From: Ignavibacteriota bacterium
GTDB lineage: Bacteria; Bacteroidota; Ignavibacteria; UBA10030; BY39
DNA: 47,735 nucleotides
NCBI GenBank assembly: GCA_003327435.1
Contig: QOQV01000001.1
Coordinates: forward strand, 463,917 to 511,651
Reading direction: 5' to 3'
The notes below the pieces were generated by a model. It saw only the letters and a list, made by a program, of their open reading frames with translations, was not told the DNA's origin and made no database searches. Below, one piece after another: positions 18,852 through 46,429 of this stretch (its first letter is position 1; every line of letters begins with the position of its first letter). A program made the translations under genes and the position numbers.

Positions 18852-18866
18852 TTCTATCTCCTTTTT

Positions 18867-27787: not shown

Positions 27788-29131
27788 TTGGTTCCAGCAC
27801 AAGTTACAATAAGAGACATCATCACAATCTTCAAAAGAAGAAAACTACTTTTCTTCATACCTGTCGTTTTACTTACTTTAATGAGTATTGGCGGTTCATA
27901 TCTCCTACCAAAGTTATACGAAGTTAATACAGTAATCTTGTACCAGAGAAATGATGTTGCTACACCACTACTCGGTCTAGAATTCACTTCAAATATGGGC
28001 GCAGAAGATAGAATACGGATGTATAGGGAGATATTATTAAGTAGATCGGTTTTAGATAAACTAATTGATAGTTTAGGATGGAGAAAAGATATAAAGTCCG
28101 AGCAACAGCTTCAGGTCATTTTTACATCCATAGCAAAGAGAATAGAAATTGCTAATAGAAGCTCAAATACATTTGTGATTGGTTTTAGCGATAGAGATCC
28201 TTACGTTGCACAACAAACAGTTAAAATTTTAACATCCTTATTGATCGAGACCGTATCCAAAGTTCAGACGCAACAAAATGAAAATGCCGTTGCATTTTTT
28301 GAAGGCAAATTGAAAGAAATCAAAGAAAAATTGGATGAAAATCAGAGAAAATTAATGGCTGTTATTGGTAATCGCGTAAGTAGCTTACCAGAACAAGGTC
28401 GGACTCAATACCTTCAAATAGAAAATATTGACAGACAAATAAATCAGATTGAGAATCAGATTGCAATATATCAACAATCACTTCAAACTTTACAAAAAGT
28501 AACACAACACTTAAACATATCCAAAGATAAAGAAGAACTCTATAATCTTGCAAGAAATGATATTCCCTTTGCACAGGATTTGAATGCACTATTAAAAAAG
28601 TACGATGAGATGCTGTTAAGATACACATCAGAATATCCAGAAGTAAAAAAAATTGAAAATCAAATTATACCCCTTCTACAAAGAATAAAGAACTCAATAG
28701 ATTCTGATTTAATAAAAAAGCAATCACTTAAGAATGAGCAGGAAAAAATCCGTCAACAACTAATAGATAATATGCGGGACTCATATGTAAGTTTAAGATT
28801 AAATGGAGAACAAGAATCTGATTACAACCTGTATAAAAAGCTATACGAAGATATGAAAGTTAAATTAGAACAAGCACGTACAACCCGAGATTTAGGATAT
28901 ACCACAGCTAATCAATTTGTAATATTAGATCCCCCTATTTTACCTACCAAACCGACTAAGCCCAAAAAAACTCAGATAGTAATCGCTGGATTCGGATTAG
29001 GAATATTTTTAGGATTGTTATTTGTAATAATAAGAGAACTACTTGATACTACAATTAGAACACCGCGAGATATTGAAATTTTCCAAAAACCAATAATTGC
29101 ATACTTAACTGATGGAAAAGAAGAAAAGTAA
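27788..29131 (+). CDS. GumC/Wzz-family EPS chain-length and export protein
   Basis: 447 residues. Membrane spans at about 18-40 (RRKLLFFIPVVLLTLMSIGG) and 398-420 (IVIAGFGLGIFLGLLFVII) bracket a large periplasmic part with a long coiled-coil region (about 160-330). The Pro-rich PPILPTKPTKPKK before the second span is the Wzz hallmark. It lacks a fused kinase; the ATPase is the next gene. Known role: sets polymer length and links the inner-membrane polymerase to the Wza channel. The start is a TTG at 27788, supported by AAAGGA at 27775-27780. First gene of the rightward operon. Confidence 0.92.
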   Translation: MVPAQVTIRDIITIFKRRKLLFFIPVVLLTLMSIGGSYLLPKLYEVNTVILYQRNDVATPLLGLEFTSNMGAEDRIRMYREILLSRSVLDKLIDSLGWRKDIKSEQQLQVIFTSIAKRIEIANRSSNTFVIGFSDRDPYVAQQTVKILTSLLIETVSKVQTQQNENAVAFFEGKLKEIKEKLDENQRKLMAVIGNRVSSLPEQGRTQYLQIENIDRQINQIENQIAIYQQSLQTLQKVTQHLNISKDKEELYNLARNDIPFAQDLNALLKKYDEMLLRYTSEYPEVKKIENQIIPLLQRIKNSIDSDLIKKQSLKNEQEKIRQQLIDNMRDSYVSLRLNGEQESDYNLYKKLYEDMKVKLEQARTTRDLGYTTANQFVILDPPILPTKPTKPKKTQIVIAGFGLGIFLGLLFVIIRELLDTTIRTPRDIEIFQKPIIAYLTDGKEEK

Positions 29132-29160: not shown

Positions 29161-29922
29161 ATGGATTTAGAAAAAAACATTGATCAAAACATAGAGGACA
29201 ATAAAAACGATAAAATTGTTCGATTACTAAAAAATATAAATATTAACAAAGAAGTTAGTAATTATATTGATAACACCTTTATACAGCATCGCATTTATAA
29301 TTCATTCAATTATTTTTTCTTATCACGAGAGAATAAAGAGATAAATTTCACTTTAGGAGTTACAAGTGCCAAAAGCGGAGAAGGTAAAACTTTAATAGCT
29401 TCTAATTTGGCAGTATCATTAGCTTTGAGTTCAAAAAAGAATACATTATTAATTGATTTAAATATTGCAAATCCAAGATTAAATAAGATATTCGGTACTC
29501 CAATTTCACCTGGTTTGACAGAAGCACTCAACGAAAGTGAAATTAATGTATTTCAATCATCGATTGATTACTTACACATCATCCCGGCTGGTAAGAAATT
29601 ATTAATTCATGAGAAATTCTTTCAATCCAAAGCAAGCAACACAGGCAAACAACAAAAATTAGAACCTTCACTCGGACTAGAACATTTAGCAAGCTTTAGA
29701 GACATAATCTATACCCTCGAACAAAAATACGAATTTATTATTGTAGATATGCCTGCGATAGGTTCTAATACAATACCACCTTTATTTGCTAATCAGTTTC
29801 ATGGACTTATTATAGTTGTTCGAAGTGAACATACTAAAAAAGAAGACATTGATAGTATATTCCATAAAGTGGGTGAAAGAAACGTCATCGGTTTTGTAAT
29901 TAATAATTTTAAAAAAATTTAA
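29161..29922 (+). CDS. BY-kinase/CpsD-like P-loop ATPase of the EPS system
   Basis: 253 residues. Walker A SAKSGEGKT (69-77), Walker A' LLIDLNIANPRL (96-107) and Walker B FIIVDMPAI identify the CpsD/CapB tyrosine-kinase family. An N-terminal helical stretch (1-55) probably contacts the Wzz partner. The C-terminus ends FVINNFKKI without the tyrosine cluster that is autophosphorylated in CpsD/Wzc, so regulation by Tyr phosphorylation is doubtful. Known role: ATP-dependent cycling that controls chain polymerisation and export. It begins 29 bases after GumC. Confidence 0.9.
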   Translation: MDLEKNIDQNIEDNKNDKIVRLLKNININKEVSNYIDNTFIQHRIYNSFNYFFLSRENKEINFTLGVTSAKSGEGKTLIASNLAVSLALSSKKNTLLIDLNIANPRLNKIFGTPISPGLTEALNESEINVFQSSIDYLHIIPAGKKLLIHEKFFQSKASNTGKQQKLEPSLGLEHLASFRDIIYTLEQKYEFIIVDMPAIGSNTIPPLFANQFHGLIIVVRSEHTKKEDIDSIFHKVGERNVIGFVINNFKKI

Positions 29923-30112: not shown

Positions 30113-31597
30113 ATGTTAAATCAATACCTAAATACAACTACAATATTTAAAAAAGAAACTCTCTGGGCTCTTTCATTTGTGTTACTTTCTATTATTGTTT
30201 CACTAATATATCTTCTCTCAAATGGAAGTGTCTTTACAACTGTCGCCATCATACTATTGATCTTAATAATTACATTAACTTTTTACCGATTAACATGGGG
30301 GTTTTATTTATTCATATGTTTAGTTTTGTTATTTGATCAATTTCCTCCGAGAGGATATGGTATAACGATAATCGGAGTTGAATATTTTTTAAACCTGAAA
30401 TCTCTGAATCTTTTTAAAAACATAGAATTCGCCGTAATAAATCCCTTAGAATTACATTTAATCCTGCTTATTTTAGCCTGGATATTCGTATTCATAACAA
30501 GGAAAAATCTATATTTTCAAAAAATACCAAACTGGTTAGCATTAATTCTTCTATTTTTCTGGTTATCGTTATCACTAATCATTGGCTTATCACGTGGGGG
30601 TGATTTTCTACCAGCACTATGGGAACTTAGAGCACTTTTTTATATGGGTTTCATGATTATCATTACACCTCAAATTATTCAATCGAAAAAAGATTTGATA
30701 AATCTAATCTGGTTTATCATTGTAACTTTAACAATAAAAGCATTTATTGGAATAATTCGCTTAATTAGATTAGGTTTTGATTTTGGCGGGAGGACCGAAT
30801 TAACCAACCATGAAGATCCACTCTTTTTTATTTCACTAATGATACTACTTCTAAGTTTTATTTTATTTAAATATAAATCTTCTCAGAAAACTTTTCTTTA
30901 CTATATTTTCCCTTTGATATTTATCATTTTTCTTTTTTCTCAGAGAAGGGCTGCTTATGCGGCATTCTTTATGGGTATAATCGCATTTCTTTTCCTAATA
31001 CAGAAAGAGCATCTAAAAACTCTTTTAAAATTCTTGATTCCATTTCTGATTATTTTCACAATTTACACAACAATTTTCTGGAACAGCACCGGAACAATTG
31101 CAATTCCAGCGCAATTAGTTAAAGCTTCAATTACTGAACCTAAAAATCCATCCGACTTAAGGTTTTACTCAAACCTATATAGAAAAGTTGAAAATTATAA
31201 TCTTGCTCAAACAGTAGTAAAATCACCTATAATTGGGATAGGTTTTGGGAAAAAATACGATCAACCAATACCATTAGTTCACATCCCTTTCCCACTTCAG
31301 GAATATATTCCGCACAATGAGATATTCTGGATTATGGTTAAGAGTGGAGCAATAGGATTCTTTTTCTTTTTCCTTTTCTTTAATTCTTATATATTTCAAA
31401 TTTCACTTCTATATAAAAAAATTGATGATCCCTACTTAAAATCAATTTGTAGTATGATAATTATAGCAACAATCGGGCAACTTGTAGTTTCGTTTTATGA
31501 CTTGCAATTAACCTATTATCGAAATATGATTTTCCTCGGAACACTATTAGGATTACTACCTACAATCAAAACAATCACGGCATTAAACAATAAATGA
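30113..31597 (+). CDS. O-antigen ligase/polymerase family protein (Wzy/WaaL-like)
   Basis: 494 residues with about 12 membrane spans. The Wzy_C landmark FSQRRAAYAAFFMGIIAFLF lies in the middle, followed by a large periplasmic loop (about 350-420, containing IGIGFGKKYDQP and YIPHNEIFWIMVKSGAIG). This H-N-E-x-F/L pattern after the loop is typical of O-antigen ligases and EPS polymerases. In a locus with Wzx and Wzz, polymerase (Wzy) is the more likely role. Its stop overlaps the next ATG (ATGA). Confidence 0.88.
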   Translation: MLNQYLNTTTIFKKETLWALSFVLLSIIVSLIYLLSNGSVFTTVAIILLILIITLTFYRLTWGFYLFICLVLLFDQFPPRGYGITIIGVEYFLNLKSLNLFKNIEFAVINPLELHLILLILAWIFVFITRKNLYFQKIPNWLALILLFFWLSLSLIIGLSRGGDFLPALWELRALFYMGFMIIITPQIIQSKKDLINLIWFIIVTLTIKAFIGIIRLIRLGFDFGGRTELTNHEDPLFFISLMILLLSFILFKYKSSQKTFLYYIFPLIFIIFLFSQRRAAYAAFFMGIIAFLFLIQKEHLKTLLKFLIPFLIIFTIYTTIFWNSTGTIAIPAQLVKASITEPKNPSDLRFYSNLYRKVENYNLAQTVVKSPIIGIGFGKKYDQPIPLVHIPFPLQEYIPHNEIFWIMVKSGAIGFFFFFLFFNSYIFQISLLYKKIDDPYLKSICSMIIIATIGQLVVSFYDLQLTYYRNMIFLGTLLGLLPTIKTITALNNK

Positions 31598-32382
31598 TAG
31601 AATCTATAACAAATAATTTTTCATTCAAGATGGAATCTGTAAAAATTCTAAATGTAATAATTGATAACATATCTATGGTAGATGCCTTGATTTCAATTGA
31701 ACATTTTATTAAAGAAAGCTATAAATCACACATTGTGACTATAAACCCTGAATTCATAATGCAAGCTCAGACCAATGAAAATTTCAGAAATGTTTTAAAC
31801 AATGCAAGACTTCGATTACCAGATGGAATAGGAATCGTGCTCGCATCAAAAATTATTGGAAAACCCATCAAAGAAAGAGTTACTGGTGTTGATACGGTTT
31901 ACGAACTTGCTCGAATTTCAGCATTAAACGGCTGGCGAATTTTTCTTTTAGGAGCGGCTCCAGGTGTAGCAGAAAAAGCAGCTTCAGAACTTATGAAGAA
32001 ATATCCAACACTACAAATCGCAGGAACTTATGCAGGTTCTCCTCACCCAGATGAAGAAAAAGAAATATGTGATAAAATTAACCAAACATATTCAGATATT
32101 TTACTGGTAGCTTACGGTTCACCAAATCAGGATCTGTGGATTGCGCGAAACCTGGATAAATTAAACATAAAAATTGCAATGGGGGTTGGTGGAACTTTCG
32201 ATTTCATAGCTGGGGTAGCTAAACGTGCACCTCAATGGATACGAAAAATTGGTCTCGAATGGTTTTATAGGTTAATGCGTGAACCATATCGCTGGCGAAG
32301 GATGCTAGCTTTACCAAAATTTGCATTAAAAATTATATTCAGTCGATTAGTAAACAAAAAAAGAGAACTACAATTTGGATAA
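31594..32382 (+). CDS. WecG/TagA/CpsF-family (GT26) glycosyltransferase
   Basis: 262 residues. Family motifs: TINPEFIMQAQ (49-59), LRLPDGIGIVLASK (73-86), RVTGVDTVYEL (95-105), YGSPNQDLWIARN and GVGGTFDFIAGVAKRAPQWI, ending in LMREPYRWRRM. Known reaction: adds the second sugar (ManNAc-type in WecG and TagA) to a polyprenyl-pyrophosphate sugar at the inner membrane. It would follow the WecA-like enzyme at 23103-25028. The ATG at 31594 overlaps the previous stop; an ATG at 31630 (MESVKILNV) is an alternative. Confidence 0.95.
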   Translation: MIESITNNFSFKMESVKILNVIIDNISMVDALISIEHFIKESYKSHIVTINPEFIMQAQTNENFRNVLNNARLRLPDGIGIVLASKIIGKPIKERVTGVDTVYELARISALNGWRIFLLGAAPGVAEKAASELMKKYPTLQIAGTYAGSPHPDEEKEICDKINQTYSDILLVAYGSPNQDLWIARNLDKLNIKIAMGVGGTFDFIAGVAKRAPQWIRKIGLEWFYRLMREPYRWRRMLALPKFALKIIFSRLVNKKRELQFG

Positions 32383-33868
32383 AACGATAGCAAAATCAAT
32401 TTTGAAAAATACAGCTGTTTTAATGAGCTCACAGGTAATTACTTGGACAATGAGTTTTATATTGCTGCTATTTTTACCACGATACCTTGGAACAGTTGAT
32501 TATGGCAGACTCTATGTAGCCGGTTCCATTATGACGATATTCTTACTGTTTATAGATTTTGGAGGAAGATATTCTATCTCAAAAGAAGTTGCAAGAAACC
32601 GTGATAAAGTTGGAGAAATTGCTGTTGACGCTATTGGTATCAGAATTATACTTTGGGCAATCTCTTTCATAATTTTAATAGTGTTTGTAATGTTCACGAA
32701 TTATCACAGATTAGAGAAAGCCCTGATTATAATATATGGCATAAGTATGCTGTGGGAAGGAATAAGGAAGGTTTTGTGGAGTTGTTTCCAGGGTTTTGAA
32801 CAGATGCGATTTCCATCAATAGGAGCCATCACAGACCAAATATTCGTGACAATTGCTGCAATAACCGCATTACTTTTAGGAGCAAATTTCTTAATAATTG
32901 GAATAATATATACGATAGGATCGTTCATTAATTTCTTTATTCATTTAAAATATTCATCTGTAATAATTACCGAAATCCCAAAATTTAATTTCAAGGGAGC
33001 TCTTGGTCTGGTAAAAAAAGGGATACCATATTTCTTCTGGTCAATTTTTGGAATTATTTACTATAGAGTCGATGCAATAATGCTATCCTTTATGACTCCT
33101 GAGACGGTGGTTGGTGCTTACGGTGCAGCATATCGGTTCTTTGATATTTTGATGTTCATTCCAAGCATATTCAGTATAGCTGTGTTCCCAATTTTATCTA
33201 GAATATATAAGGATAAAGAAAACCTGGCTTCAACAACAACTAAAAGCATTGACTTTATCGTTTTAGCTGGAATTCCAGTAAGTATTTTAATTTTTATTTT
33301 TGCACCCAATATTATAGATCTCTTCTACGGCTTGAGACAGTATAGCTCATCTGTGATTATTTTAAAAATATTCTCAGTCGGAGTAATACTTGTATACATT
33401 GATATGATTTTAGGAACTGCAATCTTAGCTTCTGATAAATTAAAAGAGTGGACACTAGTCGCATTTGGTGCTGTGATTTTAAATGTTGGTTTAAATTACA
33501 TAATGATTCCGTATACCCAGCAATATTATCATAATGGCGGAATTGGAGCAGCTATTGCCACACTTGTCACTGAACTATTTGTAATGTTATGGGCATTAAA
33601 AATCACTCCTAAAGAAAATTTTTATGGAGCAAAGCCCATGACAATTATAAAAGCTTTATTTGCTGGCATTATTTTATTTTTAATAGTTTATTCACTTCGT
33701 GAGATTCAAATATTCTGGATATTAGAAGCCATATTTGGTTTTTTCATCTATCTAATTCTTCTATTTTTATTTAAGGTATTTGAACCCAAAGAAGTTGAGT
33801 TTTTTAAAGAATATTCAACACTAAAAAATTTAAAAAATATAATTCTTCCAACAAAAGACATAAAATGA
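32375..33868 (+). CDS. Wzx-type polysaccharide flippase
   Basis: 497 residues with 12-14 membrane spans of the MOP/MATE superfamily. The opening ILKNTAVLMSSQVITWTMSF and the segment PRYLGTVDYGRLYVAGSIM are typical of Wzx-family proteins. Known role: moves the lipid-linked repeat unit across the inner membrane before Wzy polymerises it. The start is a TTG at 32375 overlapping the previous gene by 8 bases. The stop overlaps the next ATG. Confidence 0.93.
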   Translation: MDKTIAKSILKNTAVLMSSQVITWTMSFILLLFLPRYLGTVDYGRLYVAGSIMTIFLLFIDFGGRYSISKEVARNRDKVGEIAVDAIGIRIILWAISFIILIVFVMFTNYHRLEKALIIIYGISMLWEGIRKVLWSCFQGFEQMRFPSIGAITDQIFVTIAAITALLLGANFLIIGIIYTIGSFINFFIHLKYSSVIITEIPKFNFKGALGLVKKGIPYFFWSIFGIIYYRVDAIMLSFMTPETVVGAYGAAYRFFDILMFIPSIFSIAVFPILSRIYKDKENLASTTTKSIDFIVLAGIPVSILIFIFAPNIIDLFYGLRQYSSSVIILKIFSVGVILVYIDMILGTAILASDKLKEWTLVAFGAVILNVGLNYIMIPYTQQYYHNGGIGAAIATLVTELFVMLWALKITPKENFYGAKPMTIIKALFAGIILFLIVYSLREIQIFWILEAIFGFFIYLILLFLFKVFEPKEVEFFKEYSTLKNLKNIILPTKDIK

Positions 33869-35094
33869 TGAAAATATTACATATATTCCCTTACTCACCA
33901 ATACCTCCAACATTCGGAGGTGCACTTCGTGTGTATAATCTTATCAAGCAGATGAGTAAATATAATCAAGTCACATTACTTACATTTGGTGATGAAAACA
34001 TTAAACAGGTATTAAAAAATAATTTCTCTAACACGGTAAATGAAATACATACCTGCTATATTCCCAAGTATCGAAGAAAAAAACGACTTGTTCAACTGTA
34101 TTCTTTATTACGAAATCAGAGTTCCTTTAGTCTTATAGCTTATCACAAGCAGATGCAACATATAATAGATAAACTAACATCAGATAACAAATACGACATA
34201 GTTCAATTCGAATTTCCCCATATGGCAAATTATCGGATAAATTCTGATGCCATTAAAATATTAGATGCACATAATGTTGAACATCTAATTTATTACCATC
34301 AGTGGCAATATACAAATTCAAAATTAAGAAAATTCTTTTATAAAAGAGAATATAAAAAACTATTTCACGACGAGATTTCAGCATGTAAAAACCAGGATGC
34401 ATTATTAGTTACTTCTCAAAATGATGCATCAACATTTGATAAATTTATACCTGAAATTCCAAAATATTTAATACCAAACGGAGTTGATACAGAATATTTC
34501 CATCCAACAGAGGAAAATCATGAACAATATTCATTGGTTTTTACCGGCGCATTATCCTACATACCAAATTCAGACGGAGCAATATACTTTATTGAACAAA
34601 TTTTACCACATATACAAAAGATTTATCCTGATATCAAAATTTACATTGTAGGTAAAAATCCTCCTAATAATTTGCTTGAAAAATCATCAAAAAATGTAAT
34701 CATTACAGGTTATGTAGAGGATGTTAGACCTTATGTCTGGAAATCTGCAATTTTCGTTGTCCCATTAAGGATGGGTAGTGGAACAAGATTAAAAATCCTT
34801 GAAGCTCTTGCAATGAAAAAACCGGTTGTAACTACATCAGTTGGCGCAGAGGGTTTGGATGTTATAAACGGAGAAACTGTCCTGATTGCAGATGATCCAA
34901 AGGACTTCGCTGAAAAAGTTATTAATTTAATTAAAGACAACCAACTACAACAAAAGTTAGTTTCGAACGGCTATGAACTTGCAAAGAATGTATATGATTG
35001 GATTGTTATTGGTGAAAAATTAAATGAGGTGTATAAAACTATATACTCTTTTCACAAAAATTCAAGAGTTAAAAAAACAAATCATAAAAAATGA
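33865..35094 (+). CDS. GT4-family glycosyltransferase
   Basis: 409 residues, GT-B fold. The N-terminal acceptor domain starts [20 protein letters not shown] with the glycine loop. The donor domain has [32 protein letters not shown] and the UDP/GDP-sugar motif [20 protein letters not shown] with the EALA glutamate. Known chemistry: retaining transfer from a nucleotide sugar in the cytoplasm. The sequence style recalls the Stp1 sugar transferases described for exosortase-linked EPS loci. An ATG at 33868 is an equally possible start. Confidence 0.93.
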
Positions 35095-35672
35095 ATATAA
35101 AAGAAATAATATACCGTACACGCCTAAGATTGAAACGTCATTCGCTATATGAGCACATATTAGGGTTTTTACTATCACGTAAATTTACACGAGCTAAAAT
35201 CTTGGTTGTTTCAGGTGGGAAGCCATTCCCCAAGGTAATCAACCAGGGCGGTGAGCTTTACGCTGAAAACTGTCAATTTTATTCAGGCGTAAGATTAGAA
35301 ATTGGTAAAAATGGTAAGTTAATTATAAAAAACGGAACATACTTGAATCGTAATACTCTAATAGTTGCAAATAAATTTGTAGAAATTGGTAAAGATTGTA
35401 AAATCTCCTGGGATGTTATCATAATGGACACTGATCTTCATCCATTACCAGGTCAAACTGAAACCATTGATAAACCTGTTATAATTGGAGACAACGTCTG
35501 GATTGGCTGTCGTGCCATTATCTTAAAAGGTGTAAAAATTGGTAATGGTGCAATCATTGCTGCTGGTTCTGTTATTACAAAAGATATACCTGAATATTCA
35601 ATTGCAGCAGGAGTTCCTGCAAAAGTTATTTCTGTATATAAAAATTCAATGGAGAATGCTAATGTCAGATAA
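35091..35672 (+). CDS. Hexapeptide-repeat (left-handed beta-helix) acyltransferase
   Basis: 193 residues. After about 60 variable residues, hexapeptide repeats run to the end ([57 protein letters not shown]), finishing AAGVPAKVI. The D-T-D-L-H-P segment ([10 protein letters not shown]) holds the catalytic-type His of the WbbJ/maltose acetyltransferase group. Known role: O- or N-acylation of sugars from acyl-CoA in the cytoplasm. The start overlaps the previous stop (ATGA); the end overlaps the deacetylase gene. Confidence 0.92.
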
Positions 35673-36462
35673 TAACAAATCCATTGGAAATTCCAAGAAA
35701 ATTAGAATTCTAATGTATCATCATATCTCAAGGGATAAAAAATTTGTAACGAGACATAAAAATATAGCAGTCCATATTGAAGAATTTAAACTACATCTGG
35801 AAATCTTACAACGATTTGGTTACACAACTATTACTTTTAGAGATTACTCATTATTTAAAGATAATAAGCTTAATCTTCCAAGAAAACCAATTATTCTAAC
35901 ATTTGATGATGGTTATGAATCAATTTATACAGAAGTATTTCCACTGATGGAATATTATGGAATGAAAGGTGTAATATTTATCCTCGGTGATAAAGAAATA
36001 AAATACTCTATGTGGGATTTTCCAGAATTAGAGCCTCTGCCACTTTTAAATGAGCAACAAATTCTCGAACTACACGAAGCCGGTTTCGAAATAGGGGCTC
36101 ATACTTTAACTCATTCTGATTTAACCACACTATCAAGAGAAAAGGCATGGGACGAGATTTCCCGCTCGAGAATGCTCTTAGAAATTCTACTTGGTTCACC
36201 GATTAATACATTTGCTTACACATATGGCAAAGTAAATCCACTCCTAAAGGAGCTTGTTAGAGAAGCAGGTTATAAACATGCTTGCGGTACATATAGTGGA
36301 CCTCCAACTATTGATAAAGATCCGTACGAAATCAGAAGAATATTAATTAATGGAAATCAAAATCTTACCTCATATGTAATGAAACTTCAAAGACCTTATA
36401 TTTATGCTGAGTGGTTATGGTGGAAATATAAAACAATATTCTATAAGAATAACAACAAATAA
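35662..36462 (+). CDS. Polysaccharide deacetylase (NodB/CE4 family)
   Basis: 266 residues from the ATG at 35662. Motif 1 [12 protein letters not shown] contains the metal-binding and catalytic Asp pair (residues 80-85 are TFDDGY), motif 2 [11 protein letters not shown] gives the two zinc His residues (about 147 and 151), and [10 protein letters not shown] is motif 3. Known reaction: removes N-acetyl groups from hexosamine residues. No signal peptide is seen, so it may act on lipid-linked intermediates or be secreted by another route. The frame is open upstream to 35539, but that part lies inside the acyltransferase; GGAGA at 35650-35655 supports the 35662 start. Confidence 0.92.
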
Positions 36463-36467
36463 CATTG

Positions 36468-37799
36468 ATGAAATTACAAATACAAAATAATCAATCAATC
36501 GATACACCATATAAAGAAAAACTGTTAAAAACCAAAATAGTTAATTCAATAGAAGAATTACAGCAATTTAAAACTGACTGGGATAAACTTGTCGACATTT
36601 CAAATGCAACAATTTATCAAAAATCATACTGGTTGTTTAATTGGTGGAAACACTATCACAACCCTGACGCAGATAGAATGCTCATCCTTTTCTTCTATGA
36701 TGATGAGATTTTAGTTGGAATAGCCCCGTTATATATCCACGAAGAAAAATTCTTTGGAAAAACAATTTTTAAAAGATTACTTTTCATCGGAAGTGAAACA
36801 TTACATGGTCAGACCTTTGGATTATTTAACGACAATAGTCCAAGCGATTACCTTGAGATTATTTGCTACCCAAAATATGAAACAAGAATATTTGAGAGTT
36901 TTGTAAATTTCTTAATTAATAACAAAGATCTGTATGATGAAACAATACTCACAAATTTAAATGATAACAATTCTTCATTTAAATATTTACATGAAATCCT
37001 GAAGAATTGTAATTTAAGATTCAAATTTCGGAAAGGAGAAATATGTCCTTATATCAAAACTCCGTCTTCCTTTGAAGATTTTCTTAATAGTAGAACAACA
37101 AGTGTGAAGAGGAGGTTTACTCAATCCTGGAAAGAATCTGGGAAATTATTTAAAATAAAAAAATCTGGTTCATTTGAAGAATTACAGATAGCTTTACGTC
37201 AAATCAAGGAATTACACCAGAACAAATGGAACAAAACTGGATATCCTGGATTCTTTGGTGATTTGAGATACGAAAGGTTTCTTGATGAATTTATAAATTC
37301 ATGTTATAATGATGATGTGATCTGGTGTGGAGTTGCATACAATAATGATAAAGTCATTGCAGGTAGATTAGCATTCAAATACAAAGGAAGATTATATGAT
37401 TATTTATCCGGTATTGATGATACAGCTTTCGAAGCAAAGCGCCGACCTGGACTTGTATTACTGATGCATATGATTAAAGATAGCATTGATGAAAATATCC
37501 CGGTGGTTGACCTCCTTCGCGGAGATGAAGCATATAAAAAAGATTTCACAAATTCCTTTACTACAAATTGGAACTTAAGAATATACAAAGGAAATGTTAA
37601 TGTCAGATATATCTTTGTAATATTTTTACTAATTTTAAAGTTTATTAAGATTCTAATAATTAGAGAAACGATGCTTCTAAAGATCTGGATGAAAGTATAT
37701 AAAATGCCATTATCAATTTATAAATATTCAAGAAACCGTTTTCAATCGCTGGTTAGAAAAATTAAGAATTTCCTAAAAACAAAGAATCAACTGCAATGA
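36468..37799 (+). CDS. FemAB/GNAT-like acyltransferase, subfamily A, copy 1
   Basis: 443 residues. N-terminal GNAT-like half (VNSIEELQQFKTDWDKLVD; YWLFNWWKHY; LVGIAPLYI) and a second half with the PF13480-type core (HQNKWNKTGYPGFFGD, AGRLAFKYKGRLYDYLSGID, PVVDLLRGDEAYKKDF). This is the BioF2-like/FemAB-related fold. Known relatives transfer amino acids from aminoacyl-tRNA or acyl groups to cell-wall or EPS precursors. The GYPGFF motif and the YLSG / LRGDEAYK motifs recur in the product of 42883-44049. The ATG at 36468 is preferred to the TTG at 36465. A C-terminal hydrophobic segment (VRYIFVIFLLILKFIKIL) may tether it to the membrane. Confidence 0.85.
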   Translation: MKLQIQNNQSIDTPYKEKLLKTKIVNSIEELQQFKTDWDKLVDISNATIYQKSYWLFNWWKHYHNPDADRMLILFFYDDEILVGIAPLYIHEEKFFGKTIFKRLLFIGSETLHGQTFGLFNDNSPSDYLEIICYPKYETRIFESFVNFLINNKDLYDETILTNLNDNNSSFKYLHEILKNCNLRFKFRKGEICPYIKTPSSFEDFLNSRTTSVKRRFTQSWKESGKLFKIKKSGSFEELQIALRQIKELHQNKWNKTGYPGFFGDLRYERFLDEFINSCYNDDVIWCGVAYNNDKVIAGRLAFKYKGRLYDYLSGIDDTAFEAKRRPGLVLLMHMIKDSIDENIPVVDLLRGDEAYKKDFTNSFTTNWNLRIYKGNVNVRYIFVIFLLILKFIKILIIRETMLLKIWMKVYKMPLSIYKYSRNRFQSLVRKIKNFLKTKNQLQ

Positions 37800-38875
37800 A
37801 GATCCTGACTTTAATATCAAGTGGGCTTAACAGGCCAGATATCAACAAACTTTTACAAGAAGAAGCTGCTGATAGAATGCCAAGAATATCCCTGTATCAA
37901 CGTGAATTGAACTCTGATATGCTTGATGAAAGATTTTTACAAACAATTCCAAAATGGCGTAAGATAATTTATAAATTTCTACCAATTGTATTACAACAGG
38001 TAATTGAAGCTTATATTATTTGCCATAAATATGATCTTGTAGTCACATGGGCAGAAAGGTTGGCTTACCCATTTGCCTTCTTATTAAAAATTACAAACAG
38101 AAGAGTGCCACATATAACCCTAAATAGCTGGATATCAAATCCAAAGAAATCAAAATTTTTAAAGCTAACAATATCACACATAGATAAAATCTTATTATGG
38201 TCAAGTGTTCAAAAGAATTTTGCACTAAACCACTTAAAAATACCTGAATCAAAAATCGAATTTATCAGGAAATTTGCTGATCAAAAGTTTTTTAGACCGA
38301 TTGAAAGAGAAACAGATTTGATTTGTGCGGTCGGTTCTGAAATGAGGGACTACCCAACATTAGTAGAGGCACTCCGAGGTACGGATATTCCCTGTCATAT
38401 AGCTGCTGGTTTGACTCGTGGTAAACTTTATAATACAGTCAAGGCACTTTATGATATTAAAGAATTACCACCAAATATCACAATAGGCCCGAAATACTAT
38501 TATGAACTTAGAGAGCTTTATGCTCGCTCAAGATTTGTAGTTGTTCCTATCTTGCCTACAGATACTGATAATGGGTTAACATGTATCCTCGAATCAATGG
38601 CAATGGGCAAAGCAGTCATATGCTCCAGAACAGTGGGACAGGTAGATGTAATCCAGGATGGTATTACCGGAATTTATGTACCAGTTCAAGACCCATTAGC
38701 ATTAAGAGAAGCTATCATTTACTTATGGAACAATCCAGAAATAGCAAAAAAAATGGGTTTGGCAGGCAGAAGATATTTAGAAGAACACCATACCTTTGAA
38801 CAATTTATTGAAAGTATGAGAACCATCATTGAAAAAGTAATTATGGAACATAAGCAAAGAAAGAATAATTTATGA
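37796..38875 (+). CDS. GT4-family glycosyltransferase
   Basis: 359 residues, GT-B fold with a divergent N-terminal domain. The donor half holds CAVGSEMRDYPTLVEALRG, RFVVVPILPTDTDNGLTCIL, then ESMAMGKAVICSRTVG, the GT4 E-x7-E region, and ends in a helix GRRYLEEHHTFEQFI. Known chemistry: transfer of a sugar from a nucleotide donor in the cytoplasm. The start overlaps the previous stop as ATGA and the stop overlaps the next ATG, so it is coupled on both sides. Confidence 0.9.
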   Translation: MKILTLISSGLNRPDINKLLQEEAADRMPRISLYQRELNSDMLDERFLQTIPKWRKIIYKFLPIVLQQVIEAYIICHKYDLVVTWAERLAYPFAFLLKITNRRVPHITLNSWISNPKKSKFLKLTISHIDKILLWSSVQKNFALNHLKIPESKIEFIRKFADQKFFRPIERETDLICAVGSEMRDYPTLVEALRGTDIPCHIAAGLTRGKLYNTVKALYDIKELPPNITIGPKYYYELRELYARSRFVVVPILPTDTDNGLTCILESMAMGKAVICSRTVGQVDVIQDGITGIYVPVQDPLALREAIIYLWNNPEIAKKMGLAGRRYLEEHHTFEQFIESMRTIIEKVIMEHKQRKNNL

Positions 38876-40428
38876 AAACATTATATGAATATATACTAAC
38901 AGCAACAAAAAATTATAAAAATAGCACAGCCCTTGTTCAAAATTCAAAACATATATCATATAAAAATTTATTGCAAAAAATTATACTTATTTCTGATCAG
39001 TTAATTCTTGAGGGATTACATAAAGGCGATAAGATAATAATAAATCTCAAAAATCCCTTGAATCAGTTTATTGCTTCAATTGCCGTAATCCGAGCAGGTG
39101 GTGTTGCAGTACCAATAGGACAAAAAACAGATTCATCAGATTGGGATTTAATCATTAAAAATGTTGATCCATTTACTATCATCACCGATCCGAGATCCTC
39201 AGATATTAATCAAATAAAACAATTTAATTTCCCCCATTCAATTTTTTATTGGTCAGAAGAACTATTTAAACATATAGAAGATAGTGATTATATTGAGAAT
39301 ATAGAGCATTTTGAAAATGAAAGTGCACAAAAAATAACCCGATTAATTCAACCAGAAATATCAGATCTTGTTTTCATACATTATGCTAGTGAAACAAAAA
39401 AACTCATTGCCTTCAATCACATTGGTATAATATATCCATCATTATTACTTAACCAGATTCTTTCTGTAAATCCAAGTCATAGAGAACTCATAACCTATTC
39501 ACCAAGTCATATATTGGGATTCATACGTATAATACAAAACCTGATTGCAGGTGCAACAAGTTTTCTAATACAGGACATTGAAGATAAGCTCAACATTCCT
39601 GCGTACATTATGAAACACAAATGCAATACACTGTTTACAGATATTGAATTATTCAATTATCTTTGCAGCAATTTTAAATCCTTAACAATGGAAGCATTAA
39701 AAAATTTTATCATCCTTCAATTGAGCGGTGATAATATATATTCTATTGATGAACTTGTAAAACAAGGACTTTCCGATTTACAAATGACGAAAGTATATTT
39801 AAGTTATAGCCCACTGGAAGCTCCTCTTACAACTATAGTAAATATAAAAGACGTAGATCCTGAAAATTTGTGCATGGGATTACCATTACCTGGAATTAAA
39901 TTAAAAATTCAAAAACAATCCAATGTTGATAATCCTAACGTGGGAATTTTATGTATTAATGGAAATAATACTATGGAAGGTTATTTTAAAGATGGTAATA
40001 TTGATAAAAGTAATTTTTCAGCGGACAATTGGCTTATAACAAACCAGTATGCAATGCTGGATGAAAAAGGAAAACTATACCTTAAGGGGACAAAAGAAGA
40101 TGTTATGTTCATCAATAAAGATATTATCTCATTGCAAGAAATTAATGCCTTAATTGGTAATATACTTTCTGAACTAAATTGCGAATACTATTTGACCTTC
40201 AAAGAAAATATTTACGAACCAGAGAATAAGGTTCCGATCCTCTTTTATGCTACAGGTTATGCTGAAACCATTGAACCTGAAAAAATATATGAAAAAATAT
40301 CAAGCCTTGAGATTGATTGGCTAAAAAATTTACTAATTTTCAAAGTAAAAGAAATACCAAAATCAGGTAATAAAGTCATAAAAAATGAGCTTTTTAAACA
40401 AATAGACAATAAAGATCCCGATTTATGA
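38872..40428 (+). CDS. Degenerate acyl-adenylate-forming ligase homologue (ANL superfamily)
   Basis: 518 residues. Fold markers of ANL enzymes remain: opening TALVQNSKHISYKNLL, AVIRAGGVAVPIG (71-83), MGLPLPGIKLKI, LCINGNNTMEGYF and a C-terminal lid with GTKEDVMFINKDIISLQEI and EIPKSGNKVIKNEL. Key catalytic elements are altered. The Ser/Thr/Gly P-loop reads HYASETKKLIAF (170-181). The ribose-binding TGD is TNQ (390-392). The usual YGxTE becomes YSPLE (312-316). Adenylation as in canonical members is therefore doubtful. Family precedent: acyl-CoA ligase-like genes occur in exosortase-linked EPS loci. It may be a non-catalytic acyl-binding protein or a changed enzyme. Confidence 0.8.
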   Translation: MKTLYEYILTATKNYKNSTALVQNSKHISYKNLLQKIILISDQLILEGLHKGDKIIINLKNPLNQFIASIAVIRAGGVAVPIGQKTDSSDWDLIIKNVDPFTIITDPRSSDINQIKQFNFPHSIFYWSEELFKHIEDSDYIENIEHFENESAQKITRLIQPEISDLVFIHYASETKKLIAFNHIGIIYPSLLLNQILSVNPSHRELITYSPSHILGFIRIIQNLIAGATSFLIQDIEDKLNIPAYIMKHKCNTLFTDIELFNYLCSNFKSLTMEALKNFIILQLSGDNIYSIDELVKQGLSDLQMTKVYLSYSPLEAPLTTIVNIKDVDPENLCMGLPLPGIKLKIQKQSNVDNPNVGILCINGNNTMEGYFKDGNIDKSNFSADNWLITNQYAMLDEKGKLYLKGTKEDVMFINKDIISLQEINALIGNILSELNCEYYLTFKENIYEPENKVPILFYATGYAETIEPEKIYEKISSLEIDWLKNLLIFKVKEIPKSGNKVIKNELFKQIDNKDPDL

Positions 40429-41666
40429 AAATACGCAAAGACAAATTACATCCGGTTATATTGCTTGGCGGCGGACCAATTGCCTTATCAGTCGCTCGAG
40501 CATTAGGTAAAAATAACATATCCTGTTACGTAATCGATGAAGATGATAGTATAGTACACCATTCAAGATTTTGTATTGGTATCAAACATCTTCAAGATGA
40601 GGAGAAAGTTACCTGGCTTGAGTGGTTAATTGAACAGGGCCCGAAACTTCCTCAAAAATTCGTGTTAATGCCATGCTGCGACTACGGATTAAAAATTGTA
40701 ATTGAAAACCGCAAAGCCCTGGAAGAATTTTACATCTTACCAGAGGGAAATGACGAAATAACACTTAAGATGCTTGACAAGTATGAAACATACAAATTAG
40801 CCAAATCTCTAGATATTCCAATTCCAGAAGTATGGAATGTTGAAAATATTTCTGATCTTGAAAAAATTGCTGATGTGATACAATATCCATGTGCGTTGAA
40901 ACCACGAATTTCACACGAGTTTTCTTATAGATTTCATGGTACTAAGATGTTTAAAGTAAAAAACGAAGCTGAACTATATAAATATTATCACATAACCCAG
41001 CAATATAATTTGAAGATGCTAATTACAGAATTAATTCCACTTGGTTCAGAAGGCTACGATGGCTATTACACACACATTGATGAAAATGGAAATCCACTCT
41101 TTCATTTTACAAAACTCAGATTAAGACAGCAACCAAATTTATATGGATTGGGTACTTACAATGTAACAAATTGGAATCCAGAAGTAATAAAGTTAGGTCT
41201 AAAATTCCTTCAAGGTATTAAACTTAGGGGTATTGGAACCTTAGAATTTATGCGTGATGCCAGAGATGGTAAACTCAAATTACTTGAATGTAATCCTCGA
41301 TTTACTGGCACCACCGAGTTGTTACACAAATCTGGACTGAATTGGGCATTATTTGTATATAACCGTTTAGTTGGTTTAACGACTCCAAAGATGGATTACT
41401 ATAAAAGAGGAGTTTATATAATCAAACCATTACCTGATTACTTAGCGTTTCGTGAATTGAAAAAAAATAACAAACTTTCATTTATCGGATGGATCAAAAG
41501 CTTAATGCATACACCACATTTTTATATCTGGAGCTGGTCGGATCCTAAACCATTCATAGTCAACACATATTGCTTCTGGAAGAGACAATTATTAAAACTA
41601 TTTAGAATAATTACACTCAAAAATTTCTTGAAATATAAACCCACTGAAACTAAAAATGTTTCATGA
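40425..41666 (+). CDS. ATP-grasp family carboxylate-amine ligase
   Basis: 413 residues. N-terminal pre-ATP-grasp domain LLGGGPIALSVARALGK (14-30), then the ATP-grasp core: LKMLDKYETYKLAKSLDIPIP, YPCALKPRIS with the ATP-binding Lys, and LECNPRFTGTTELL with the Mg-binding E/N pair. Known chemistry: ATP-driven acyl-phosphate formation and ligation of a carboxylate to an amine, e.g. D-aspartate ligase or PylC. The substrate is not readable. Together with the FemAB-like genes it suggests that an amino acid or hydroxy acid is joined to an EPS sugar or lipid carrier (inference). The C-terminus is hydrophobic/aromatic and basic, perhaps membrane-associated. Confidence 0.87.
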   Translation: MKIRKDKLHPVILLGGGPIALSVARALGKNNISCYVIDEDDSIVHHSRFCIGIKHLQDEEKVTWLEWLIEQGPKLPQKFVLMPCCDYGLKIVIENRKALEEFYILPEGNDEITLKMLDKYETYKLAKSLDIPIPEVWNVENISDLEKIADVIQYPCALKPRISHEFSYRFHGTKMFKVKNEAELYKYYHITQQYNLKMLITELIPLGSEGYDGYYTHIDENGNPLFHFTKLRLRQQPNLYGLGTYNVTNWNPEVIKLGLKFLQGIKLRGIGTLEFMRDARDGKLKLLECNPRFTGTTELLHKSGLNWALFVYNRLVGLTTPKMDYYKRGVYIIKPLPDYLAFRELKKNNKLSFIGWIKSLMHTPHFYIWSWSDPKPFIVNTYCFWKRQLLKLFRIITLKNFLKYKPTETKNVS

Positions 41667-42889
41667 AGAATAAGAACAATACATACGACATTAAAGTTAT
41701 AAGAAGCATTCAGGAATTAAATTCTATTAAACCTGCCTGGGATGAAATAGTGAAGCATTATAATAATGTTTGTCTCACTACCGAATGGATAAGTTGCTGG
41801 TTAAAATGTTTCGTAGACGACAATACTTCTATTAAAATATTAATTGTAAAAAAAAATAACGATGTCATTGCGATTGCACCATTATTATTAAGAAAAGAAA
41901 AATTAATATTTCTACCATACAAAAAAATAGAATTTATTTCGATGGCAGATTACCCAGATTCTCCCACAAATTTATGCCCAGAACTTGATATTATTATCAC
42001 TCCCGGGTATGAGGATGTTTTAGACAAAATATTCGAAGAACTAATGAAAGATGATTGGCATTTTATTCGATTAAACCCAATCCCAGTAGAATCACAAACA
42101 ATCTCTGAAATTAAAAATTTTGCAAGCAACTATAATCTGAAATTTGTAGAACAAGAAGCATTTAAATCTCTTATTATAGATACAAACAGAAGCTGGGAAA
42201 ATTATTATCAATCGTTATCGAAAAGATTCCGCAAACAGCTAAGATATTTTCAAAACAAATTTAAAGAAATTGGAGAAATAAAGTTTGTTTTATTTAAATC
42301 TCCAACAGAGATTAAGGAAAATTTACATCATGTTCTGGATATAGAGAAAAGAAGCTGGAAATGGCAAAAAGGTGTTAGTATCAATTCTATCGGTTATAAA
42401 AACTTTTTCAAAGAGTTCTCGGAACAGGTTTGCCATTTAGAATGGGTACATCTCTGGTTTTTAGAATTGAATGGTAAATACATAGCTTATGATATGAATA
42501 TATGTTACAGAGACAAAGTTATAAACTGGAAAGGTAGTTATGACGAAGAATTTTCAGATTTTGGTCCAGGACAATTGTTATTAGAAAAAGAACTAGAATA
42601 TTATATGAATAACAGTATTTCTGAATTTAATATGTTGTGGGGTCGAACTTTAGCAAAAGAACGTTGGGATCCGAACAATAAATCATTTTCAGAAATATTT
42701 ATCTTTAAGAATAATCAATACTCAATACTACTAAAAATTTTATTAATTGATATTAGTTTTTACAAAATCATTAGAATTTTTAAAAGTTATAAAAACCGAA
42801 TTCTTAGAAAACTCAAAATTAAATCTCAAAAATCTGAGTTGACCAGAGCAGATCAGTTAAAAAATTCAACCATTGGTTCAGAATGGTAA
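41663..42889 (+). CDS. FemAB/GNAT-like acyltransferase, subfamily B, copy 1
   Basis: 408 residues. N-terminal half VIRSIQELNSIKPAWDEIV, TTEWISCWLKCF and IAIAPLLLRKEK; second half SWKWQKGVSINSIGYKNFF, KYIAYDMNICYRDKVINWKG and SYDEEFSDFGPGQLLLEKEL, then FNMLWGRTLAKERW. The K-G-S-I-x-YKNFF, AYD and SYD-x4-FGPG motifs are shared with the product of 44046-45224 and differ from subfamily A. The start overlaps the ATP-grasp stop (ATGA), which suggests linked function. Predicted to transfer an acyl or aminoacyl group; substrate unknown. Confidence 0.85.
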   Translation: MKNKNNTYDIKVIRSIQELNSIKPAWDEIVKHYNNVCLTTEWISCWLKCFVDDNTSIKILIVKKNNDVIAIAPLLLRKEKLIFLPYKKIEFISMADYPDSPTNLCPELDIIITPGYEDVLDKIFEELMKDDWHFIRLNPIPVESQTISEIKNFASNYNLKFVEQEAFKSLIIDTNRSWENYYQSLSKRFRKQLRYFQNKFKEIGEIKFVLFKSPTEIKENLHHVLDIEKRSWKWQKGVSINSIGYKNFFKEFSEQVCHLEWVHLWFLELNGKYIAYDMNICYRDKVINWKGSYDEEFSDFGPGQLLLEKELEYYMNNSISEFNMLWGRTLAKERWDPNNKSFSEIFIFKNNQYSILLKILLIDISFYKIIRIFKSYKNRILRKLKIKSQKSELTRADQLKNSTIGSEW

Positions 42890-44049
42890 TAAAAGTTATC
42901 ACAAACGACAGTGATTTCGCCAGCTTAGAAAAGCACTGGATAAATTTACACGGGAAAATGAATGGAACAGTGTTTCAATCTTTCTTTTGGAATTTTCAAT
43001 GGTGGAAATTCTATAAAAAGGAAAACAACGAACTGTTGATAATTACAGTGTGGAACGATAATGAAATTGTAGGTATACTCCCACTTTTTAAAGAAAACAT
43101 TAAAATCGGACCGCTTAAATTCAATCGATCAAGATTACTATGCGTTTATCAGGCATACGGTGAATATGAACCTTTGATTAATCCAGAATATAAAAATATT
43201 GTGATTGTAAAATTCATAGAGCAGATCAAAGAATTTTTTAAGGATAGAACACTAAAGTGGGCATCATTTTATGGGTTTCCATATATTTCTGAATCAATGT
43301 CTGAAATTATCAAATATTTTAAAGAACATAAATACATTGTTTTACACAAACCAAGAATTGTCACAAGGGTTGTGATGCAACTACCAGATTCATGGGAAGA
43401 ATATATAAATTCATTGACCAATAATGAAAAAACAATGCTCCAAAGGAGAATAAAATCACTCAAAAAGAATAATGTAGAATTAGAAATTTTAAAAGACCAA
43501 GAAATTAAAACAGAAGATTTCAAGGACTTTGTAAGATTACATACTGCTTCATGGGAGAGCAAAGGTTTCCCGGGTTTTTTTAAAGCATCAGAAAACTTTG
43601 AAAAATTTCTCTCGAAAATTGTTACAACAAACAACAATGAAACAATAAGAAAATTGTATTTCTTCAAGAAAGATAGTAGAAGATTTGCAGCTGTATTATC
43701 TTTTTTTAGTCATCCTATTTGTTATTTTTATCTTAGTGGAATGGAACAAAATCACGAATTGAAAAAGTATAGTCCAGGAAAAGTTTTACTAAGTTATGTT
43801 ATTAAGGATGCAATTGAAGCTAATTACAAAATCTTCGATTTCCAAGGTGGAAAGGAAACTTATAAATATCAGCTTGGTGGAAAATCGGATTATTATTCAA
43901 AGGTCGACATTTTTTCGAAAACATTAGCTACTCCAATTTTAGTCACGCTGCATTACCTAATACAATTAAGACAGGTATTACTTACCTTCTACGATTATAA
44001 TAAATTCTCAAGATTATTTCGACGAATGATTGCAAAATTAAAGAGATGA
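42883..44049 (+). CDS. FemAB/GNAT-like acyltransferase, subfamily A, copy 2
   Basis: 388 residues. Opening VIKVITNDSDFASLEKHWIN and FQSFFWNFQWWKFYKKEN match the first subfamily A protein. The core HTASWESKGFPGFFKASE, FYLSGMEQNHELKKYSPG and IFDFQGGKETYKYQL match its HQNKWNKTGYPGFF, YLSGIDD and LLRGDEAYK segments. It overlaps the previous gene by 7 bases (ATGGTAATAA) and the next by 4. The paralogy with 36468-37799 is visible directly; the transferred group is unknown. Confidence 0.85.
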   Translation: MVIKVITNDSDFASLEKHWINLHGKMNGTVFQSFFWNFQWWKFYKKENNELLIITVWNDNEIVGILPLFKENIKIGPLKFNRSRLLCVYQAYGEYEPLINPEYKNIVIVKFIEQIKEFFKDRTLKWASFYGFPYISESMSEIIKYFKEHKYIVLHKPRIVTRVVMQLPDSWEEYINSLTNNEKTMLQRRIKSLKKNNVELEILKDQEIKTEDFKDFVRLHTASWESKGFPGFFKASENFEKFLSKIVTTNNNETIRKLYFFKKDSRRFAAVLSFFSHPICYFYLSGMEQNHELKKYSPGKVLLSYVIKDAIEANYKIFDFQGGKETYKYQLGGKSDYYSKVDIFSKTLATPILVTLHYLIQLRQVLLTFYDYNKFSRLFRRMIAKLKR

Positions 44050-45224
44050 TTATGAATACAGCCAAAAATGAAAATACGCTAGCTGAAGATTATCGAATAC
44101 AAATTATAAATTCATTCGACGAAGCATCAATGTATCGCCAAATCTGGAATAATCTGGTTTTATCATCAGAAAATCCCAACCCATTTTTAATATTCGAGTG
44201 GTTTGAAAGTTGGTGGCAATGCTTTGCATCGAAGGATAAAACTCCTTATATCATCTTCATTTGGAAAGCTCAGGAACTTATAGGGATAGCACCGTTAATG
44301 CTGGTTCAAATAAAAAAATTTGGATTCAAAATTAACAAATTGGAATTTTTATCAATGATGAAATATGCTTATTCCGCTTTAAATTTAGCAGGACACCTGG
44401 ATTTTATCATAAGGCGAGATAATCATAAAATTGCTCTGGAATGTATTTTAAAACATTTAAAAGAAAAAGTTAAAAACTGGGATTACATCAGGCTCCATCC
44501 GATATTGTCTGACTCACAAACACTAAAATCATTACGGGATAACAAAAAATATTATAAATTCGATATATATATTAGACGCGTATTTTTTAGTACAAAGATT
44601 GTGTTTGATAGTACTTGGGAAAATTACTTAACGAAATTAGACAGAGATTTTGTAAAAAAAATCAATAGAAGAGAAAACAAATTAAAAAAAATCGGTAAAT
44701 TTGAAATTTTAAATATCACAAGAATAGATAACATCGAAAAAATATATAGTATTATAGTACAAATAGATAAAGCAAGCTGGAAAGATAAAAGAGGAATTTC
44801 CATATATGACAAGAAGTACAAAAATTTTTTTCAAGCACTTCTAAGAAATCTATCTAACACAGACAATATTTTTATAGGTTTAGCACAAATTGATGATAAA
44901 ACTATTGCATACGATATTATTTTTAAATTTGCACATGTAGCAATTGATTTAAAAACAAGTTATGATTCGAATTACCGTAATTATGGAGTGGGTAACATTG
45001 TGTCTTTTTATAACATCAAAAAAATTTATGAATTAGGTTATAAAGAATTTCACCTGCTATGGGGGAATATTAAAGCTAAATCAGTTTGGAAACCAGAGAT
45101 CGAACAATATGACGAAGTATTTATATTTAATAATAGATTAAAATCGAAATTTCTTAATTTTTTGTATCATAAACTATTATTATACAGAATATTTCGGTTT
45201 ATAAATTATAAATTATTTAATTAA
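44046..45224 (+). CDS. FemAB/GNAT-like acyltransferase, subfamily B, copy 2
   Basis: 392 residues. It has IQIINSFDEASMYRQIWNN, LIFEWFESWWQCFASKD, LIGIAPLML, then SWKDKRGISIYDKKYKNFF, KTIAYDIIFKFAHVAIDLK, SYDSNYRNYGVGNIVSF and FHLLWGNIKAKSVWKP. These segments align with the subfamily B protein at 41663-42889. Two in-frame ATGs (44046, 44052) are possible; the first overlaps the previous stop. The stop overlaps the next ATG by one base. Predicted acyl or aminoacyl transferase of the EPS pathway. Confidence 0.85.
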   Translation: MIMNTAKNENTLAEDYRIQIINSFDEASMYRQIWNNLVLSSENPNPFLIFEWFESWWQCFASKDKTPYIIFIWKAQELIGIAPLMLVQIKKFGFKINKLEFLSMMKYAYSALNLAGHLDFIIRRDNHKIALECILKHLKEKVKNWDYIRLHPILSDSQTLKSLRDNKKYYKFDIYIRRVFFSTKIVFDSTWENYLTKLDRDFVKKINRRENKLKKIGKFEILNITRIDNIEKIYSIIVQIDKASWKDKRGISIYDKKYKNFFQALLRNLSNTDNIFIGLAQIDDKTIAYDIIFKFAHVAIDLKTSYDSNYRNYGVGNIVSFYNIKKIYELGYKEFHLLWGNIKAKSVWKPEIEQYDEVFIFNNRLKSKFLNFLYHKLLLYRIFRFINYKLFN

Positions 45225-46429
45225 TGGTTATTGTATTTCAAATATTAGAAACTTTATTAATAATATTTATTGGAGGTATAGTTCTATATCTCCTATTTTT
45301 AAGTTTGAGTGCATTGAGAAGTTCAAAAGAAAAGATCTTATTTGCAAATAAGTACAATAAGTTTGCATTTATAATACCTGCACATAATGAAGAACTTTCA
45401 ATTACGAGAACTATCAAGAGTATATTACAGATCGATTATCCAGGAGAATTATGGGATCTGTTTGTTATCGCAGACAATTGTACAGATAAAACAGCAGAAA
45501 TCAGCAGTGAGCTTGGAGCGAATGTTTTAATAAGAAACAATCCAACCGAAAGAGGAAAAGGTTATGCACTTAGATGGTGTACAGATATTTTGTTAAAAAG
45601 TCAAAAAAATTATGATGCAATAGTTATTGTTGATGCAGATAGTATTGTTCAACCCAATATTCTGAAAGTTCTAAACACATATCTACAGAATGGTTCACAG
45701 GCTATTCAAGTCGCAGACTTAGTCGAACCACAATATGACTCCTGGAGTTCAGAAGTCACAAGAGTTGGATTTACACTTTATAATTATGTAAGACCCCTTG
45801 GACGGAAGAATTTTAAATTTACAGCTGGTTTAAAAGGAAATGGAATGTGTTTAAGTACATTATTATTGAAAAAGATACCCTGGTCTTCTTGGTCTCTAAA
45901 TGAAGATCTTGAGCATGGATTAATCTTATTATTAAATGGTATAGTTGTAGATTTTGCACCTGAAACTATTGTATTGGCAGCAATGCCAAGAGATCATAAA
46001 AAGGCAGAATCACAAAGATCCAGATGGGAAAGAGGTCGATATCCTGTAATAAAAAATTATACCTTGAAACTATTACGCAAATATCTAAAAACTGGCTCAT
46101 TTGTTTATTTCGATGCTTTAATAGAATTAATTACACCTCCGATTGTCAATTTATTTGTACTCATCACTTTCATGATATTTATTAATGCATTATTAATAAC
46201 TTTAGAAATTAAAGAACTAAATATTTTTTTATATGTATGGCTGGCAATTTTTATGATGGGTATATTACACATACTTATAGGTTTAAAAGCAGCAAATGCA
46301 GATAGAACCCTATATAAAGCTTTTTTCCATATACCGAAATATGTTATTTGGAAAATTTATCTTTATATAAATTTTACCTTTAAAAAATTTCACAACGAAT
46401 GGATCAGAACAAGTCGTGAAACAAACTAA
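45224..46429 (+). CDS. GT2 membrane glycosyltransferase (cellulose/PNAG-synthase-like)
   Basis: 401 residues. One N-terminal span (about 8-28), then a complete GT2 domain: FIIPAHNEELSITRTI (49-64), VIADNCTDKT (81-90), the DxD motif DADS (137-140), the acceptor-site NEDLE (226-230) and QRSRW (264-268), the Q/RxxRW motif of processive enzymes. Two or three C-terminal spans follow (about 305-360). Known role: transfers sugars from UDP donors at the inner membrane, often with polymer extrusion. It may add a side branch or make a second polymer. The ATG overlaps the previous stop by one base (TAATG). Confidence 0.92.
   Translation: MVIVFQILETLLIIFIGGIVLYLLFLSLSALRSSKEKILFANKYNKFAFIIPAHNEELSITRTIKSILQIDYPGELWDLFVIADNCTDKTAEISSELGANVLIRNNPTERGKGYALRWCTDILLKSQKNYDAIVIVDADSIVQPNILKVLNTYLQNGSQAIQVADLVEPQYDSWSSEVTRVGFTLYNYVRPLGRKNFKFTAGLKGNGMCLSTLLLKKIPWSSWSLNEDLEHGLILLLNGIVVDFAPETIVLAAMPRDHKKAESQRSRWERGRYPVIKNYTLKLLRKYLKTGSFVYFDALIELITPPIVNLFVLITFMIFINALLITLEIKELNIFLYVWLAIFMMGILHILIGLKAANADRTLYKAFFHIPKYVIWKIYLYINFTFKKFHNEWIRTSRETN

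Follow-up and report, generated by a model that had tools for sequence, protein, structure and literature searches.

Four FemAB-like tandem-GNAT transferases in an EPS operon of an Ignavibacteriota bacterium, with a probable role in polysaccharide decoration

The window analyzed here, a stretch of 47,735 nucleotides from an Ignavibacteriota bacterium, contains an EPS locus in which four genes (A1, B1, A2 and B2; Table 1) code for FemAB-like transferases that probably add several amino-acid or acyl groups to the polysaccharide; a decorating role is probable because the four enzymes, which diverged long ago and resemble in build those that attach amino acids to the cell-wall precursors of bacteria, adjoin an enzyme predicted to expose sugar amines. 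By gene content the operon is of the Wzx/Wzy type. The four transferase genes abut or overlap their neighbors on one strand within the Wza/Wzz/BY-kinase/Wzy/Wzx locus, and the order A1, GT4, AMP-binding protein, ATP-grasp, B1, A2, B2, GT2 agrees with that in an earlier note on this DNA. The deacetylase probably has its true start inside the annotated ORF, and has no obvious signal peptide by eye. Positions 46792–47735 of the window encode a protein of ITATAGPNGSISPSG-type repeat units that runs off the end of the contig, which is also the end of the window, and in relatives a small response-regulator-like gene lies between the GT2 and repeat-protein genes (L034:691-1053, L037:17251-17616).

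Table 1. Genes of the EPS locus, with coordinates in the window.
Feature	Coordinates	Strand
Wza-type polysaccharide export protein (PF02563, SLBB)	26780..27487	-
Wzz chain-length protein (PF02706, GNVR)	27788..29131	+
BY-kinase-like ATPase (AAA_31)	29161..29922	+
O-antigen ligase/polymerase family (PF04932)	30113..31597	+
WecG/TagA glycosyltransferase	31594..32382	+
Wzx-type flippase (PF01943)	32375..33868	+
GT4 glycosyltransferase (GT4a)	33865..35094	+
Left-handed beta-helix (hexapeptide) acyltransferase	35091..35672	+
Polysaccharide deacetylase (PF01522; TFDDG and HTLTH motifs), directly 5' of A1	35539..36462	+
A1, PF13480 tandem-GNAT FemAB-like transferase, conserved K357	36468..37799	+
GT4 glycosyltransferase (GT4b)	37796..38875	+
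Degenerate AMP-binding (ANL) protein	38872..40428	+
ATP-grasp ligase	40425..41666	+
B1, PF13480 tandem-GNAT transferase, FemX-like model, K332	41663..42889	+
A2, PF13480 tandem-GNAT transferase, K328	42883..44049	+
B2, PF13480 tandem-GNAT transferase, K345	44046..45224	+
GT2 glycosyltransferase, EpsU-like (249 bits, below the cut-off of 700)	45224..46429	+

All four ORFs predicted in the earlier note to encode FemAB/GNAT proteins are present, and each codes for a full-length PF13480 (Acetyltransf_6) tandem-GNAT protein of 388–443 aa, with the PF13480 domain in the C-terminal half and a basic C-terminus. Their profile scores of 73, 71, 57 (57.5) and 55 (55.5) bits are well above the curated cut-off of 22 bits, and the 2.63-Mb genome has no other PF13480 gene. 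PF13480 corresponds to the InterPro entry IPR038740 (BioF2-like), that of the wps-3 acetyltransferase considered below. The note had also proposed comparison with FemAB models, and here the outcome differs, with no PF02388 (FemABX) match for any of the four among Pfam matches at E up to 0.1. A2 has a sub-threshold match to PF04339 (FemAB_like), the one NCBIfam model that clearly matches B1 and B2 is that of the crotonyl transferase BspF, far under its cut-off, and sequence searches for homologues of solved structure gave nothing convincing for A1, A2 or B.

The transferases form two subfamilies, and most of the motifs first used to distinguish them are present: GYPGFF/GFPGFF, YLSG and EAYK/ETYK in A1 and A2, and AYD and SYD in B1 and B2. 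The spacing of the remaining B motif, given before as KG-x-SI-x-YKNFF, was wrong, and it reads [KR]G-x-S-I-x4-YKNFF (KGVSINSIGYKNFF, RGISIYDKKYKNFF). A1 and A2 are 26% identical (E 5e-22) and B1 and B2 30% (E 2e-49); similarity between A and B proteins is below these levels yet detectable, and an alignment of A2 and B profiles spans 357 columns (E 4.7e-24). Near its C-terminus (window about 42820–42860) B1 has a conserved basic helix followed by SE-x-TR-x-DQ, which is found in B1 orthologues and not in B2.

The A...B-A-B gene order is what led to the earlier proposal that one A-B pair was duplicated as a unit, and in its favor A1/A2 and B1/B2 are the closest pairs in the window. However, in a tree of 47 proteins A1, A2, B1, B2 and a further type, A3, are separate clades, and the orthologous A1, A2, B1 and B2 clades have members in other families and predate the split between families. 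B1 and B2 are close neighbors within families f1 (that of the window's genome) and f2, and their split is far shallower than that of A1 and A2. A joint duplication of the pair in the f1/f2 ancestor would require A2 to group with the f1/f2 A1 proteins, a constraint that lowers lnL by 46.5 and is rejected (AU p = 3.9e-5). The test does not reject a clade of A2 with all A1 proteins (p 0.28), which leaves room for A1 and A2 as sisters at an older node; across the order, A1 is also found without A2. The interleaved order thus does not appear, on this phylogeny, to reflect a simple tandem pair duplication, which we regard as very improbable.

The set of transferases is found in the same order across the window's family. 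Another genome of the same genus (G001) has the complete locus, with 64–89% protein identity, and in a second genus of the family (G004) the order is kept, except that a spermidine-synthase/methyltransferase-like gene of 245 aa separates B1 from A2. Such genes lie amid the transferases in several relatives (L037:12882-13619, L038:8680-9444, L039:15397-16233 and 18839-19591) and are absent from the window's genus. In G003 the cassette is split over two contigs, and its B1 orthologue (L036:5962-6894) has lost, through an internal deletion, the conserved lysine together with most of the C-terminal GNAT domain; B1 may therefore be dispensable, or the G003 assembly may be wrong. In another family, G005 has A1, B1, A2 and B2 plus a fifth copy, A3; G040 and G028 have only A1, B1 and A3, and f4 and f6 genomes have A1 with distant B-like proteins. 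Each gene seems usable alone, because related loci carry A1 alone, or A1, B1 and A3. In an even sample of the phylum, 29 of 148 genomes have a strong PF13480 match, and the multi-copy cassette is uncommon but recurrent, since at least three PF13480 genes in one cluster occur in only four (the window's genome, G092, G117 and G137).

A predicted structure of B1 (pLDDT 71.7, pTM 0.70) has the tandem-GNAT Fem fold; the A2 model has a pLDDT of 36. The best PDB matches of the B1 model are FemX (Z 20.4, with an rmsd of 4.2 over 304 aligned residues), FemA (Z 19.7), tRNA-dependent peptide synthases (Z 18) and MprF (Z 17). Fold likeness cannot separate tRNA from CoA donors, because tandem CoA-using GNATs, at Z about 16, are only a few Z units lower. 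The four lysines listed in Table 1 occupy the same alignment position and are near-invariant, within a motif (D/N-x-x-x-G-...-K-x-x-F/L/W) that resembles D288...K305 and Y302-V-F-K305 of FemXWv. The register against FemX Lys305 rests on a reading of the motif, since hhalign found no sequence homology when A1 or B was compared with FemA alone. The predicted B1 fold and a conserved lysine in a similar motif recall FemX/FemA/FemB and MprF, although the PF02388 match is absent here and the substrate is presumably an EPS repeat unit. An aminoacyl-tRNA donor is plausible given the B1 model; a search for a dedicated tRNA gene in the window found none.

The partners of A1-like genes in relatives suggest a likely acceptor. 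A deacetylase lies directly 5' of A1 in most of the relatives read, and a DegT aminotransferase is fused to A1-like proteins (G092, G137; f7 genomes) or adjoins such a gene (G117, G095, G342; f33 genomes). As both partners would yield free sugar amines, the simplest role that all would share is to N-acylate an amine, in line with what has been suggested for HfsK/HfsH (PMC5362036). A different type of partner is a phosphopantetheine carrier domain, neighboring in G117 and G095 and fused in G031, where a 1214-aa protein (L050:5185-8829) combines two PF13480 transferases, a hexapeptide acyltransferase and the carrier. No carrier gene was found in the window's own EPS cluster, whereas G031 has both an intact ligase and a carrier, which suggests that donor supply differs between lineages.

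A working ligase beside the transferases had also been supposed, and this is not supported: the AMP-binding protein lacks the P-loop TSGTTGxxK and the TGD motif in the window and in the three other f1 genomes read. Two f2 genomes of one genus have a version shortened to about 250 aa, and that of G117 is degenerate; G028, G031 and G058 keep both motifs. Its dN/dS is 0.06 (G000 versus G001), like that of its neighbors, although dS is near saturation and the ratio is rough. The protein is retained under purifying selection but probably adenylates no substrate, and donor activation by it cannot be assumed with the ATP-binding motifs lost. The ATP-grasp enzyme, in which E274 and E288-C-N290 (the metal-binding Glu and Glu-x-Asn) are invariant in 8 orthologues, is intact; its match to PF15632 is sub-threshold (23.9 versus 29.1 bits). 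It occurs as a fusion with B1 in G028 and with A1 in G055; these fusions, each in one genome and possibly an assembly artefact, could tie it to the transferases' step or to an intermediate.

We favor, with some confidence, a cytoplasmic sugar-decoration cassette in which the four Fem-like proteins (amino)acylate amines on lipid-linked repeat units. The deacetylase, possibly with other amine-making steps, would expose amino groups on the repeat-unit sugars. Each transferase, with its own preference for donor or acceptor, would then attach an aminoacyl or acyl group to an amine, ahead of the flipping of the unit by Wzx. Aminoacyl-tRNAs would be the likeliest donors, as for FemX and MprF, with CoA thioesters second; the ATP-grasp enzyme might make a further amide or activate a small acid, and the AMP-binding protein may be a relic or a non-catalytic partner. 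The analysis establishes the gene content, the homology, the conserved order, the separate orthology of the four, the lost ATP loop and the predicted fold of B1, whereas the amine acceptor, the lipid-linked timing, the donor and the division of labor are parts that we infer. Only context and fold support the decoration suggested in the earlier note; a working ligase at 38872 is not supported.

A lesser but real possibility is that the donors are acyl-CoA or acyl-carrier thioesters, and that these are N-acyltransferases installing acetyl, hydroxyacyl or fatty acyl groups rather than amino acids. The BspF match of B1 and B2 points this way, as do the pairing of A1 with an intact-motif ligase (G028, G031, G058) or a carrier (G031, G117, G095), and the Ldh_2 and RraA-like genes of G044, which could make hydroxy acids; in the window's family, however, the ligase is degenerate, its EPS cluster has no carrier gene, and the structural ranking of B1 favors tRNA-dependent enzymes. 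It is rather unlikely that the transferases act one after another so that a short peptide grows on a single sugar amine, the way FemX, FemA and FemB work on lipid II. In favor of this, four diverged paralogues share one operon, B1 is modeled with a Fem fold, and an ATP-grasp ligase could in principle form peptide-like amides; against it, there is no evidence of order, and related loci have A1 by itself or with B1 and A3. Similarly doubtful is a repeat unit carrying a short tRNA-dependent peptide or distinct amino acids, with a dead adenylate-forming protein as structural or regulatory partner.

The favored cassette can be compared with several known systems. In Caulobacter holdfast, the deacetylase HfsH exposes amines that are the proposed targets of acylation by FemX-like HfsK (PMC5362036), and the likenesses include a FemX-like tandem GNAT (here the B1 fold), a polysaccharide pathway with a deacetylase (here directly 5' of A1), several paralogues in the genome, and a C-terminal extension, basic here in all four; the likeness was judged from the B1 fold and the position of the deacetylase gene. 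HfsK is c-di-GMP controlled, the HfsK type being marked by c-di-GMP binding through C-terminal arginines; the window has four paralogues in one operon with an ATP-grasp enzyme and a pseudo-ligase. XrtA/PEP-CTERM clusters (e.g. Rubrivivax, PMC3684757) share the order of nodB-type deacetylase, FemAB-related protein and GT4 in a Wza/Wzz locus, and the AMP-binding protein weakly matches TIGR03098; but they have one FemAB-like gene rather than four, and the window's genome lacks both exosortase (PF09721) and, at E 1, a TIGR03019 match, which 11 A1 orthologues also lack. Membership in this class was rejected and is highly improbable. In Actinoplanes, of another phylum, the wps-3 EPS cluster is a single Wzx/Wzy locus that unites a deacetylase, a DegT aminotransferase and a BioF2-like acetyltransferase, although only one such transferase is named (PMC13390465). 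A literature search for FemAB proteins with ATP-grasp enzymes or with exosortase found no paper in the collection searched. The earlier view that no described pathway has this set may be right for this particular combination, but EPS pairs of FemAB-like protein and deacetylase are described (PMC5362036, PMC3684757), and the cassette is a variation on that theme.

This kind of enzyme is thus known, and four in one operon are unusual. PF13480 proteins occur in many EPS loci, yet little is known of which donors and acceptors they use, as stated for HfsK (PMC5362036). The conserved cassette combines four diverged copies with amine-making partners and natural fusions, which opens the substrate question to genetics and glycan analysis. 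The ligase has repeatedly lost its ATP site next to transferases that stay intact; this suggests a donor switch, one that can be traced across related lineages.
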